64,000 bases of DNA from Cyrtodaria siliqua (taxonomy: Eukaryota > Mollusca > Bivalvia > Adapedonta > Hiatellidae), in the NCBI GenBank assembly GCA_037043455.1, contig JAWPHD010003267.1:62001-126000 (forward strand), read 5' to 3'. The notes under the pieces are model-generated. The model searched no databases and was not told where the DNA came from. It was given only the letters and a program-made list of their open reading frames with translations. Position numbers and translations under genes: made by a program. This document shows, one piece after another, positions 49,601 to 52,361 of the stretch. Numbering within the stretch: the stretch's first letter is position 1; each line of letters opens with the position of its first letter.

Positions 49601-52361
49601 GGTTAGGTGTACTCAGATGGACTGCATTTATTATAACATTGTTAAATAAAAATTGCTAGTTATTTTTTTTTTTTGCATACATAGTAAAAAATATTAGAGA
49701 AAGGTTAAAGTTTTAAATTATATTTTAATAGCCATAGGATAACACAGATATGTATATTAATATCACTATCCCCAGCCATCGCTGGATTGGGAGATATAAT
49801 AGTAAGTGTGTCCCCTGTATACATATCAGCACTTTGAAAGAAAGCTTCACCCACTGTATTAAACTATTTTTATTTTTTATAAATGAAAAGCATTTTCTGA
49901 GCATGGTTTAACCAAAACTTTAATTCACAACTACCTGCAACATTTTCATTTTGTCACTTTTATTTCAAACTTGAAGTTCACAATTGTACAGTCACTCATG
50001 ACAGATACCAATATCAAAAGGTATAGTATAGGTCACAGTCATTATGTAGAAATGCCACATGTAATATGGCATTGGAGATCTTGCTGTATGTGACTGGTTC
50101 TTGTTAATATTATGTTGACTGTTCTAGGTGGATGGTTGACTCACGTGATGATTACACAGACGAAAGATTGGCAATGATGGAGGACAAATATTCTGTCTAC
50201 AGGTGTCACACCATCATGAACTGTACAAAAACATGTCCAAAGGTAAGTACAGGCTTCACACCATCATGAACTGTACAAAAACATGTCCAAAGGTGAGTAC
50301 AGGCATCACACCATCATGAACTGTACAAAAACTCCAAAGGTGAGTACAGGCATCACACCATCATGAACTGTACAAAAACATGTCTTAAGGTGAGTACAGG
50401 CGTCACACCATCATGAACTGTACAAAAACACAGGCGTCACACCATCATGAACTGTACAAAAACATGTCCAAAGGTGAGTACAGGCGTCACACCATCATGA
50501 ACTGTACTAAAACATGTCCAAAGGTGAGTACAGGCGTCACACCATCATGAACTGTACAAAAACATGTCCAAAACATGTCCAAAGGTGAGGACAGGCATCA
50601 CACCATCATGAACTGTACAAAAACGTCCAAAGGTGAGTACAGGCGTCACACCATCGTGAACTGTACAAAAACATGTCCCGAGGTGAGTAATGGTGTCACA
50701 ACATCATAAACTGTGCAAAAACATGTACAAAGGTGGCATCATACCATAATGAACTGTACAAAGACATGTACAACGGTAATTACCGGCGTCAGACCATCAA
50801 AGGTAAATACAGCCATCACACTATCATGAACTGTACAAAAACATGTCCAAAAGTAAATACAGCCATCAAACCATCAGGAAATGCACAAAAACGTGTGAGT
50901 ACAGGCATCACACCATCATGAACTGTACAAAAACTCCAAAGGTGAGTACAGGCATCACACCATCATGAACTGTACAAAAACATGTCTTAAGGTGAGTACA
51001 GGCGTCACACCATCATGAACTGTACAAAAACACAGGCGTCACACCATCATGAACTGTACAAAAACATGTCCAAAGGTGAGTACAGGCGTCACACCATCAT
51101 GAACTGTACTAAAACATGTCCAAAGGTGAGTACAGGCGTCACACCATCATGAACTGTACAAAAACATGTCCAAAACATGTCCAAAGGTGAGGACAGGCAT
51201 CACACCATCATGAACTGTACAAAAACGTCCAAAGGTGAGTACAGGCTTCACACCATCGTGAACTGTACAAAAACATGTCCCGAGGTGAGTAATGGTGTCA
51301 CAACATCATAAACTGTGCAAAAACATGTACAAAGGTGGCATCATACCATAATGAACTGTACAAAGACATGTACAACGGTAATTACCGGCGTCAGACCATC
51401 AAAGGTAAATACAGCCATCACACTATCATGAACTGTACAAAAACATGTCCAAAGGTAAATACAGCCATCAAACCATCAGGAAATGCCCAAAAACGTGTGA
51501 GTACAGGCATCACACCATCAGGAACTCCAAAGGTAAATACAGCCATCACACCATCAGGAACTGCACAAAAACGTGTCCAGATGCGAGTACAGGCATCACA
51601 CCATCAGGAACCGTACAAAAACATGTCCAAATGTAAGTACGGTCGAGAAATGTGAAGTACAGCTGTCACAACTTTTATCCACTCTGTATAAACTCTGCAA
51701 TATGCTTTAGACGCATGAAACTTTACAGGCACACTTCACAGCAATGGGTTCTTCCGGACGACAGTTTTAGTGTCTGGATCGAGTATTCTCCCATACCTGC
51801 TCATGTGAGATAGGCATTTTCCTCATGTGAGGTAACTCTATCTTACATGACATGTGACTTACAACGTCATGACATTACGTCGACGTCGCCTTATTCTGGC
51901 GTTAAATCAGCAAAGTCATTGATTTTATGCCAGTAATAAACACATAATGGGAGAAAAATAATCCATCTCGAGTGACCCATGACAGATAGGGAAATCTCAC
52001 CCTCGGGATCAGAATTGCAACCAGGCACTCGGCAGAGCCCTGATTGCAATTCTAACCCCTCGGGTGAGATTTCTCTATCTCACATGGATACTCATGATGG
52101 ATTCTTATAGTCTTTCTGATGTCTTAAATGTGTTAGCAAGAAAAATTCCCATCAAGTTTATATTGAGCAGAACATTAAATTCAAATCACTAGGTTTATAA
52201 GACAAGATATATTCATCATTATTGTTGAAATGCATTTTCTGATGTGATATTGTTGTATTTTTCAGGGTTTGAATCCTGGTCTGGCAATCGGAGCAATGAA
52301 GAAAATGCTGGCCCTTTATGATGCCAATAAGGCTAAGGCGAAGGCAGAAGCTACGGTTTAA
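31543..52361 (+). CDS. sdhb: Succinate dehydrogenase iron-sulfur subunit, mitochondrial (9 exons)
   Basis: Nine exons join in frame to 284 codons plus TAA (855 nt; vertebrate SDHB is about 280 aa). The protein carries electrons from the flavoprotein subunit to ubiquinone in complex II, on the matrix side of the inner mitochondrial membrane. A basic N-terminal presequence comes first. The [2Fe-2S] ligands are Cys90, 95, 98 and 110. The [4Fe-4S] ligands are Cys184, 187, 190 and 251. The [3Fe-4S] ligands are Cys194, 241 and 247. All are present, and no stop or frameshift was found. All introns are GT-AG. Intron sizes run from 323 bp (intron 2) to 6516 bp (intron 1). Oddities are partial duplications of exons 5, 8 and 9 (listed separately). 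Confidence 0.97.
31972..32780. mobile_element. hAT-like non-autonomous element in sdhb intron 1
   Basis: The element 31979-32773 begins CAGGGAGTAAGTATACGGGG and ends with the reverse complement CCCCGTATACTTACTCCCTG. The inverted repeat is about 31 bp. The 7 bp flanks GTGTGAT (31972-31978) and GCGTGAT (32774-32780) differ at one position. CAGGG..CCCTG ends suggest hAT, although hAT usually makes 8 bp duplications. The interior holds a tandem duplication of about 200 bp (32071-32275 and 32283-32465, with TTACCTTCTTGACAAAGATA in both). No coding sequence. Confidence 0.75.
32996..33307 (+). mobile_element. SINE family A in sdhb intron 1
   Basis: Same family as 859-1188 but on the + strand: head GCGCAGTCGGTAGCGTGG, box B-like GGTTCAATCC, 3' end CATTCAATTCAATTTT. 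The flanks share CTCATGTCTATTTTTT (about 32978-32993 and 33351-33366). The second copy lies inside a ~63 bp tandem duplication (TATACTCACCCCAT repeated at 33308 and 33371). Confidence 0.88.
33420..34460. other. Intron 1 stretch without recognised feature
   Basis: AT-rich. No exon-like or repeat pattern is recognised. Confidence 0.4.
34462..34905 (-). repeat. Truncated copy of the TR320 element
   Basis: Read on the minus strand, it ends with the terminal motif of the large arrays (GAGCTTCAAGGTCATTGACC then TCTTG). It carries about one and a third diverged 320 bp units, with GGCCATCTTGAATTTCCGGG-like and TGATCAGCATGGCAGGATG-like segments. It is in the opposite orientation to the three large arrays and more diverged. 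Confidence 0.75.
35360..37521. mobile_element. Candidate TAA-flanked Harbinger-like pair of ends
   Basis: Left end GGCCTAAAAAAAAAAATTGT then TTGTTTCC. Right end, in reverse complement, GGCGTAATAAAAAATATTGT then TTGTTTCC. TAA lies outside each end (35357-35359, 37522-37524). The ends resemble the MITE at 8405-8770. The interior holds no transposase I recognise, and a G/T-rich GGTCGGTAGGTAGGC motif repeats near both ends. These could be one 2.16 kb element or two unrelated MITE ends. Confidence 0.4.
35740..35975 (+). repeat. Dispersed repeat ending in (GACA)n-type microsatellite
   Basis: GGTCACAGTGACCGTGACCT, then GGGTTAAGAAGTTATATTGT, then an imperfect GACAGACAGACTGACTGACT run at 35922-35960. 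Confidence 0.5.
37525..38121. other. Intron 1 end, no feature recognised
   Basis: A short inverted or direct repetition of ATCGATAATC/GATTATC occurs near 38000-38055. The acceptor ACTTCAG of exon 2 ends the stretch. Confidence 0.4.
38122..38190 (+). CDS. sdhb: sdhb exon 2
   Basis: Twenty-three codons in phase 0, encoding [20 protein letters not shown] and YRF. The acceptor is ACTTCAG and the donor GTATGT. This covers the end of the presequence and the first strand of the ferredoxin-like domain. Confidence 0.93.
38514..38572 (+). CDS. sdhb: sdhb exon 3
   Basis: Fifty-nine nt encoding [19 protein letters not shown] plus a split Thr codon. The acceptor is TTACCAG and the donor GTAAGT. The [19 protein letters not shown] pattern is highly conserved in animal SDHB. 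Confidence 0.96.
38573..40436. other. sdhb intron 3, no element resolved
   Basis: AT-rich. ATCGATC-type repeats occur at 38690-39070. A T/A-rich tract at 39350 gives minus-strand open frames that I consider chance. Confidence 0.4.
40437..40580 (+). CDS. sdhb: sdhb exon 4 ([2Fe-2S] cluster)
   Basis: One hundred and forty-four nt. It contains [20 protein letters not shown] and [18 protein letters not shown], then NTLACL. Cys90, 95, 98 and 110 form the plant-ferredoxin-type [2Fe-2S] site. The acceptor is TTATAG and the donor GTGAGC. Confidence 0.97.
40903..41416. mobile_element. TTAA-flanked inverted-repeat element in intron 4
   Basis: The element 40907-41412 has ends AGGGACAATGTCCGTAA and TTACGGACAGTGTCCCT, inverted over 17 bp with one mismatch, and TTAA outside both (40903-40906, 41413-41416). 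TTAA duplications suggest piggyBac or Kolobok-type mobilisation. A tRNA-like segment on the minus strand (CGCATAGCTCAGCTAGGAGC at about 41132-41151, box B-like GGTTCAAACTC near 41056) lies inside. No coding sequence. A related left end, TTTAAAGGGACACTGT, occurs at 58432. Confidence 0.65.
41460..41830. repeat. Dispersed repeat rich in TTCCCAA motifs
   Basis: GCTGTTTTTATAGCCGAAAT, then TCGGTCATATTCCCAATGCC. It ends with ATTCCCAATTCCAGGGG, GGGTCATGTTCCCAAAATCA and AAATCCCTG. CAGG..CCCTG-like ends hint at another inverted-repeat element, but no clean target duplication was found. Confidence 0.4.
42337..42412 (+). CDS. sdhb: sdhb exon 5
   Basis: Seventy-six nt encoding a split Cys codon (TG|T), then [20 protein letters not shown] and KDLVP. 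The acceptor is TTCATAG and the donor GTAAGT. The [16 protein letters not shown] motif is nearly invariant in SDHB. Confidence 0.97.
42421..42471 (+). repeat. Degenerate tandem copy of sdhb exon 5
   Basis: The sequence from AAATGACAACACCGAACCCT onward aligns with exon 5 at an offset of exactly 80 bp, with about 38 of 48 positions identical over the best part. The copied unit includes the donor region (GTAAGTAA) that separates the two. It has a one-base gap and no intact frame, so it is a non-functional exon relic. Confidence 0.65.
42600..42930 (+). repeat. Dispersed repeat R3, diverged copy in intron 5
   Basis: It shares GCCGATTAAAAGT, AAAATACCCGT, a CTCGTAATTCGAAGC block and GGGATAGCGGCTTTAAC-like sequence with 55190-55510 and 5597-5720. 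Confidence 0.5.
42994..43116 (+). CDS. sdhb: sdhb exon 6
   Basis: Forty-one codons in phase 0, including [20 protein letters not shown] and [12 protein letters not shown]. The acceptor is TGACAG and the donor GTGAGT. This is the linker between the ferredoxin-like and the helical Fe-S domain. Confidence 0.97.
43343..43639 (+). mobile_element. SINE family B, full-length, in sdhb intron 6
   Basis: The element is 43358-43624, with head GGGGCGTCCGTGGCCGAGTG, box A-like TGGCCGAGTGG and box B-like GGTTCGATCC. A perfect 15 bp duplication, TTTGTTTTGTTATTA, flanks it (43343-43357, 43625-43639). The tail is CTAATTCAGTTCC. Confidence 0.93.
43680..44845. other. sdhb intron 6 stretch with minor repeats
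   Basis: GAATGAATGAATGGTGTTTT starts a dispersed repeat near 43680; a similar TGGTGTTTTACGTC occurs at 58129. The rest is unrecognised. The 63-codon minus-strand frame near 44567-44758 has no family signature. Confidence 0.4.
44848..45020 (+). mobile_element. SINE family C (tRNA-like) in intron 6
   Basis: Head-like CCATGGTCAAGATGGTAAAG is followed by box B-like GGGTTCAAATTCC at about 44895-44907 and a non-tRNA body (GAAATTGTCAATTCTTACAG, GGTTCTACCCAGG). Only one copy is in the window, so family status and ends are tentative. Confidence 0.5.
45231..45340 (+). CDS. sdhb: sdhb exon 7 ([4Fe-4S] ligands)
   Basis: One hundred and ten nt encoding [20 protein letters not shown], then [16 protein letters not shown] and a split Arg codon. 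The CxxCxxCxxxCP motif supplies Cys184, 187, 190 ([4Fe-4S]) and 194 ([3Fe-4S]). The acceptor is TTTCAG. The donor GTATTT is weak, like that of exon 1. Confidence 0.97.
45405..46095 (+). repeat. Tandem array, about 155-160 bp unit, four copies, in intron 7
   Basis: It begins with CCCGCCGCAACAGGCGGAAA. Units contain TCGTGTCCGCT, CTCGAAAACTACTA, GGACTGCAATGAA, TTTCACACAATGATAGA and CATAACTCTG.CTTCATTT, with starts near 45463, 45627, 45768 and 45925, and a partial unit from 46082. Confidence 0.85.
46100..46760. other. Intron 7 stretch; flank of the older G-rich repeat
   Basis: No gene. Near 46580-46640, TTTTGGGGGACTGCGACCC and GGGTGGGGGAATTTTAG belong to a G-rich repeat whose other part appears at 49318-49400, on the far side of the TR320 array. 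Confidence 0.4.
46762..49314 (+). mobile_element. TR320 element, copy 1 (about eight 320 bp units) in intron 7
   Basis: It starts TTTTAGCTCTACTGATCAGA, then GATCAGCAGAGCTT and a GCGGCGTCCGTCGTCCGTC run. It ends ATCAGTAGAGCTTCAAGGTC then ATTGACCTCTTGTTTA. The unit start CTTGTAGCGACTACTCC recurs at 47173, 47494, 47814, 48134, 48454, 48771 and 49093, with spacing 317-322 bp. Each unit is a dimer of two diverged ~160 bp halves, each opening TGTAGCGACTACT. The layout resembles the tandem-repeat-bearing non-autonomous elements known in bivalves (for example pearl), possibly Helitron-related. Open frames inside are by-products. Confidence 0.88.
49315..50127. other. End of intron 7, with older repeat debris
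   Basis: G-rich repeat to about 49400, then a segment with CAGCTTGACATTGTAAACC and GCAGGCTGATCTGGG. Otherwise AT-rich, ending at the exon 8 acceptor TTCTAG. Confidence 0.45.
50128..50242 (+). CDS. sdhb: sdhb exon 8 (Fe-S ligands)
   Basis: One hundred and fifteen nt, ending ...[15 protein letters not shown] in phase 0. Cys241 and Cys247 bind the [3Fe-4S] cluster and Cys251 the [4Fe-4S] cluster. The acceptor is TTCTAG and the donor GTAAGT at 50243. The last ~45 nt and the donor are the source of the tandem array in the following intron. Confidence 0.96.
50243..51650 (+). repeat. Tandem array of sdhb exon 8 end plus splice donor (about 30 units)
   Basis: Each ~50 bp unit reads TACAGG(C/T)(G/A/T)TCAC, ACCATCATGAACTGTAC, AAAAACATGTCCAAAG, then a donor-like GTGAGTAC or GTAAGTAC. 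The source is exon 8 at 50198-50242 with its donor. TACAGG occurs both inside exon 8 (50198-50203) and in the intron (50248-50253), 50 bp apart, a possible slippage site. About 17 units keep GTRAGT. A 602 bp block is repeated almost exactly. Units are 50 bp, not a multiple of three. If the first donor is skipped, the exon 8 frame meets TGA within nine codons. Confidence 0.95.
51985..52079. repeat. Long hairpin upstream of exon 9
   Basis: The left arm GATAGGGAAATCTCACCCTC continues to AATTGCAA. The right arm runs TTGCAATTCTAACC to GAGATTTCTCTATC. About 36 bp pair with few mismatches around a ~23 nt centre. Weaker outer pairing (CATGTGAGATAG near 51800 with CTATCTCACATG at 52074) suggests a larger inverted-repeat element, possibly a MITE. 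Confidence 0.7.
52266..52361 (+). CDS. sdhb: sdhb exon 9 (C-terminal)
   Basis: Thirty-one codons plus [23 protein letters not shown] then [11 protein letters not shown]. The acceptor is TTTTTCAG. The lysine/alanine-rich tail is typical of SDHB C-termini. The last ~33 coding nt and the start of the 3' UTR are copied three times at 53213-53419. Confidence 0.96.
   Translation, partial: GLNPGLAIGAMKKMLALYDANKAKAKAEATV

Follow-up and report, generated by a model that had tools for sequence, protein, structure and literature searches.

A boundary minisatellite repeats the end of exon 8 and its splice donor in the sdhb gene of the bivalve Cyrtodaria siliqua

The window analysed here is a stretch of 64,000 nucleotides from Cyrtodaria siliqua (assembly GCA_037043455.1, contig JAWPHD010003267.1, positions 62,001 to 126,000) that contains exons 2 to 9 of sdhb. 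The end of exon 8 of this gene and its splice donor together form the unit of a minisatellite, which starts inside the exon and extends into intron 8. We propose that this array is probably a neutral product of slippage and unequal exchange, that it is removed whole in splicing and that the first donor is favoured, even though 15 downstream decoys equal this donor in their match to U1.

The gene lies on the + strand of the window, as do all exons, array units and donors located below. Our gene model comprises exons 2 to 9, numbered as in an earlier sequence-only reading of this DNA, within positions 38122-52361; exon 1 was not located. These exons are translated without an internal stop, and the product is a mitochondrial-type SDHB whose best match among solved chains is 1yq3_B (E 1.8e-135). 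Exon 8 (50128-50242, 115 nt), delimited by the gene model and by the protein match to SDHB chains, is flanked by introns 7 and 8 of 4,787 and 2,023 nt, and exon 9 (52266-52361) codes for the last 31 residues and the stop. The C-terminal 15 residues encoded by exon 8 align with a 15-residue stretch of 1yq3_B. The three cysteines at the exon 8 end presumably bind the 3Fe-4S and 4Fe-4S clusters, as in complex II structures. The G+C content of the window is 34.8%.

Wrap-around alignment delineated a minisatellite at 50198-51645, with a 50-bp consensus and 31 units up to 51637, followed by an 8-base partial unit. Each unit corresponds to the last 45 nt of exon 8, coding for 15 residues, plus GTRAG. 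Unit 1 (50198-50247) is the exon end itself with the GTAAG of the true donor, and units 2 to 31 with the partial unit make up the intronic part of the array (50248-51645). A 602-bp block occurs twice in succession, as units 3-15 (50297-50898) and units 16-28 (50899-51500), the two copies being identical at 599 of 602 positions. With the block counted once, the 30 downstream units contain just 17 independent ones. The sequence-only reading had described about 30 tandem units of the exon end and its donor, placed 50 nt apart. The nature of the unit and the count were borne out, but the spacing is uneven, since unit 8 has 11 extra bases and, among the 17 independent decoy units, five are shortened to 27-44 nt. 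The motif TACAGG, with which unit 1 opens in the exon (50198), recurs right after the donor as TAC(A/G)G. On the 3' side of the last unit, at 51638, the array is followed by TACGGTCG, which looks like a former intron start. Between the array and exon 9, intron 8 also carries an inverted repeat (51977-52087) with 49-nt arms that are 84% complementary and 13 nt apart.

The same earlier reading had counted about 17 GTRAGT donors and judged the GTGAGT ones to fit U1 well, and both statements proved correct. There are 17 GTRAGT motifs including the true donor, and the 16 downstream comprise 15 GTGAGT and one GTAAGT. Duplex energies were computed with a U1 5' end made of standard bases, without pseudouridine. 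On this scale the true donor, AAG/GTAAGT at 50243-50248, reaches -10.1 kcal/mol, the lowest value among the seven sdhb donors scored; the other six range from -1.1 to -8.8, including the predicted exon 6 donor, which is also a GTGAGT (CTG/GTGAGT, -8.7 kcal/mol). Fifteen decoys, two of them GTGAGG, score -10.1 to -10.3 kcal/mol. The first one, AAG/GTGAGT at 50293-50298 (-10.2 kcal/mol), is located 50 nt after the true donor. The 14 others (-10.1 to -10.3 kcal/mol) are spread over 50340-51290, with their GT at 50340, 50390, 50474, 50524, 50585 (GTGAGG), 50633 and 50683 and, for the seven in the second copy of the 602-bp block, at 50942, 50992, 51076, 51126, 51187 (GTGAGG), 51235 and 51285. The longer motif AGGTRAGT is present 13 times downstream of the true donor, compared with a mean of 0.09 and a maximum of 2 when intron 8 was simulated as 2,000 first-order Markov sequences. 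It is absent from sdhb introns 2-7, all six of which were scanned within approximate bounds.

Read-through translation showed that every transcript spliced at a unit decoy meets the same in-frame TGA (50267-50269) as its ninth read-through codon, in agreement with the earlier claim of a stop within nine codons. The product would lose the 31 residues of exon 9, which would remain untranslated, and gain VSTGFTPS at its end. Even a slight leak to decoys would yield a truncated protein ending in VSTGFTPS. The distance from this stop to the exon junction is 23 nt for the first decoy and 70 to 1,015 nt for the other 14 strong decoys. Exon-junction-dependent nonsense-mediated decay (NMD) follows a 50-55 nt rule. 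To the extent that this rule applies in this animal, the first decoy would escape this type of NMD, and the other strong decoys would not. Use of 12 of the 15 strong decoys would result in exons of 346-1157 nt.

We then compared the units with one another. The donor 9-mer AAG/GTRAGT is intact in six of the 17 independent decoys, which ranks it 34th among the 50 possible 9-mer windows of the unit, with eight tied. This sliding-window control reveals no selection on the decoy donors, the donor window not being specially kept. Mean substitutions per site amount to 1.60 at the five intron-derived positions and 1.02 at the 45 exon-derived ones. Coding constraint in the array was likewise rejected, with 11, 14 and 21 of 46 substitutions at codon positions 1, 2 and 3 in the 17 independent units, an excess at third positions that chance can explain (chi-square p 0.18). 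Conservation is thus no higher for the decoy donors than elsewhere in the unit, and nothing points to a selected function.

Divergence from the exon grows with distance along the array (Spearman 0.68, p 0.003, for 17 independent units that share part of their history), so that outer units are more diverged than inner ones. In the one allele available, the exon and the majority of its 17 independent copies disagree at three of 50 positions, namely 7, 8 and 48. The last is donor position +3, and the other two belong to a single cysteine codon, which presumably encodes a cluster ligand. The majority at position 8 is thin, with eight A to seven G. Sixteen copies have the first base of this codon, which is C in 15 of them and remains T in one. 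Purifying selection acting on the exon would account for the difference at the cysteine codon, in which case the exon, not the decoys, resisted change.

Our preferred scenario for a neutral minisatellite would begin with a misalignment between the exonic TACAGG at 50198 and the TAC(A/G)G right behind the donor. Stepwise growth would have followed, the 602-bp block being its latest visible step. The array would then likely have no role and would leave with the intron. Most decoys carry a near-copy of the 45 nt of exonic context, and therefore local sequence hardly discriminates between donors; position would have to do so. All decoys are downstream, which would leave the true donor closest to the exon 8 acceptor. 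It is predicted to win for this reason, in a 115-nt exon flanked by introns of 4.8 and 2.0 kb. In minigenes with two identical CAG/guaagu donors 52 nt apart and flanking introns of 365 nt, the upstream donor was exclusively used under exon definition, according to excerpts of PMC9225289. The setting of exon 8 fits these exon-definition minigenes, and most strong decoys would create the long exons given above. In amphioxus, genes that carry boundary repeats of this type reportedly undergo regular splicing (PMC3087553, PMC3902484). We predict normal splicing and tolerance of the array on these grounds.

Several points weigh against this interpretation. The same excerpts of PMC9225289 report that the downstream donor is preferred under intron definition, and the published minigenes had two donors, compared with sixteen in the sdhb array. 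The exon 8 acceptor, which has 12 pyrimidines of 20 and no run longer than 4, is of middling strength, and fifteen decoys are of the same U1 grade as the true donor. Across 17 units, the GT of the decoys shows a single substitution and two gaps, which lends weak support to their retention. Finally, normal splicing of sdhb is itself a prediction. The locus thus amounts to a natural experiment in 5' splice-site choice. Use of the first donor alone would lend support, from a natural animal gene, to exon-proximal choice under exon definition; use of the decoys would mean that an essential gene bears a measurable, length-dependent cost.

The sequence-only reading had left a choice between a U1-binding platform, splicing-based control through NMD and neutral slippage. 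The last fits best, given that the donor 9-mer is not specially kept, and we obtained no positive evidence for NMD control. In such a control, U1 bound to decoys would divert a share of the sdhb pre-mRNA into isoforms that contain the stop and are degraded by NMD, and array length would set SDHB output. The 15 strong decoys match the energy of the true donor, a single TGA is common to the read-through products, and at least 70 nt separate stop and junction for 14 of the 15. However, the donors lack preferential conservation, the nearest decoy places the junction only 23 nt past the stop, most strong decoys would create the long exons mentioned above, and comparable minigenes use the upstream donor exclusively in the excerpted source (PMC9225289); we thus regard this control as quite improbable. 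Its extension to a copy-number dial on respiration, with some 15 decoys competing with one productive donor, a stop-containing share that tracks array length and a complex II level that varies heritably or even somatically, appears more doubtful still. As for a platform on which U1 would shield the intron from premature polyadenylation, it could account for the density of GTRAGT, which reaches 7.9 per kb in intron 8 without its own donor, compared with 0-1.7 per kb in introns 2-7 (own donor included in some). Nevertheless, intron 8 has just two AATAAA or ATTAAA hexamers, both past the array (51935 and 52174), and its donors bear no sign of selection, leaving this proposal with very little credibility.

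It is unlikely, but less so than these functional proposals, that the copy number is an assembly artefact, i.e. that the array is real and its 602-bp block was doubled by haplotype joining or repeat misassembly. The near-identity of the adjacent blocks is what such an error would produce, and their 0.5% divergence could be allelic. Yet further long arrays, with 320-bp units in 3.6 to 7.6 copies, were assembled in the same window, and, since the block does not include units 1-2 and 29-31, the array exists regardless. We also considered an intermediate of intron gain, in which AG/GTRAG would serve as both acceptor and donor and units would be removed stepwise. Fifteen AG/GTRAG sites are found downstream, 13 of which are AGGTRAGT, and human UBC uses tandem dual-specific sites (PMC10809524, from excerpts). 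As acceptors, however, none of the 15 sites contains a run above 4, and their pyrimidine count is 8-10 of 20, compared with 11-17 for the eight real sdhb acceptors, a modest gap as the acceptors of exons 2, 7 and 8 also have a longest run of only 4. The 24 ACAG sites of the array have 7-9 pyrimidines of 20 and, in contrast to UBC units, the 50-nt unit contains a stop and cannot be divided into whole codons. Such an intermediate is thus highly improbable, and the neutral boundary minisatellite remains our favoured explanation.

RNA structure was also analysed. A stem, CTGTAC/GTACAG, can form around the donor with all six pairs in eight of 18 independent units, including unit 1. Of five array stretches that were folded, four are no more stable than shuffled sequences (z 0.63, 0.36, -0.18 and -0.29), and the last unit is the sole one that is (z -3.42). 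In that stretch, which comprises the last unit with its following bases (51580-51646), matching changes in the stem replace CTGTAC/GTACAG by CCGTAC/GTACGG; it is a single case. Accessibility was rejected as a discriminator among the 17 sites, because the value of the true donor (0.013) is inside the range of the decoys (0.000-0.019) in one setting and equal to that of the highest decoy (0.009) in the other. The window has no Rfam match at gathering scores.

Local duplication is frequent across the window, where BLAST gave 41 overlapping rows within 3 kb at E values up to 1e-5. These rows are not independent loci: eight are spill-over of 320-bp arrays and three are exon 9 copies, pairs wholly within four large arrays having been dropped beforehand. 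A targeted search with the eight sdhb exons and 30-bp flanks yielded non-self matches for exon 8 (27), exon 9 (3) and exon 5 (1). The exon 5 copy (42419-42468, from 42339-42389) is degenerate, with 41 of 51 positions identical, and was detected in the targeted search only (E 2e-7); it fails the cut-off of the window-wide BLAST scan. The copies of the exon 9 end are found 0.9-1.0 kb downstream. As local duplication is common and exons 5 and 9 are also copied nearby, the array is more in keeping with a duplication-prone locus than with a designed device.

Other features of these repeats were noted. The exon 5 copy begins directly after the exon 5 donor GTAAGT and is an older-looking second exon-derived tandem copy in sdhb. 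The region of the sdhb stop codon (52331-52391) has three copies at 53213-53417 (92-97%), two direct and one inverted, which adjoin TGGGTGGATTTGGGGGAAATAGG-like repeats. A 320-bp satellite forms three arrays (46854-49269, 56164-57299 and 58931-60831; 89-92% matches), the first of which occupies about half of sdhb intron 7. A domain scan of 10 of the 28 open reading frames identified a piece of reverse transcriptase at 11548-11985 (+) (RVT_1, E 2.3e-15), a weak match to DNA polymerase B at 23004-23396 (+) that misses the cut-off (E 6.3e-4) and a sub-threshold capsid-like match at 28458-28850 (+) (E 0.0075), which looks to us more like a retroelement endonuclease.

Among the papers listed by our literature search, none named an array of this type in a bivalve or in sdhb. 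The exon-end minisatellite of human IFI6 reportedly has a unit of about 12 bp and is said to add residues in frame when used alternatively, whereas the sdhb unit is 50 bp long and decoy use ends at a stop. Like the sdhb array, the IFI6 minisatellite (gene also called 6-16 or G1P3) offers several donors, and two of its downstream repeat units are used (Turri et al. 1995, via excerpts of PMC4526556). Human UBC resembles the sdhb array in having AG/GT at the boundaries of tandem units, sites that are used both as acceptor and donor (PMC10809524). The UBC units are coding monomers, whereas those of sdhb are intronic, out of frame and poor acceptors, and contain a stop; in-frame coding monomers are not found in the sdhb array, given its 50-bp unit and the TGA in the read-through frame. 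In the model of intron creation by AG/GT tandem duplication (Rogers; Gao and Lynch, as cited in excerpts of PMC3087553), the duplication also crosses AG/GT, but at sdhb it lengthens an existing intron instead of making a new one.

The closest counterparts are the exon-intron boundary minisatellites called mirages in amphioxus, described for Adh3 and the globins BflGb6 and BflGb9, with TnC and PGBD5 mentioned (PMC3087553, excerpts). Together with IFI6, they precede the present case, which the sequence-only reading had taken to be undescribed. Excerpts of PMC3087553 and PMC3902484 report that mirages are homogenised inside but not at the cluster boundaries, that their length is unstable and that regular splicing of the host genes is undisturbed. 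In the one assembly, the 602-bp block may hint at length instability of the sdhb array. The sdhb array belongs to this kind by three structural marks: it spans the exon-intron boundary and adjoins the authentic one, its 50-bp unit is inside the 10-160 bp range given in PMC3087553, and its AG/GT signals include a strong donor (-10.1 kcal/mol or better) in many, not all, of the downstream units. It differs in that 15 of the 30 downstream units have such a donor and in that the exon involved is an essential Fe-S exon, and it has 31 units, compared with six and three in two amphioxus BflGb6 haplotypes (PMC3087553, excerpts). Thus, the sdhb array adds to the mirages a long member with strong donors, notable for its number of units, the strength of its decoys and the essential exon from which it arose.

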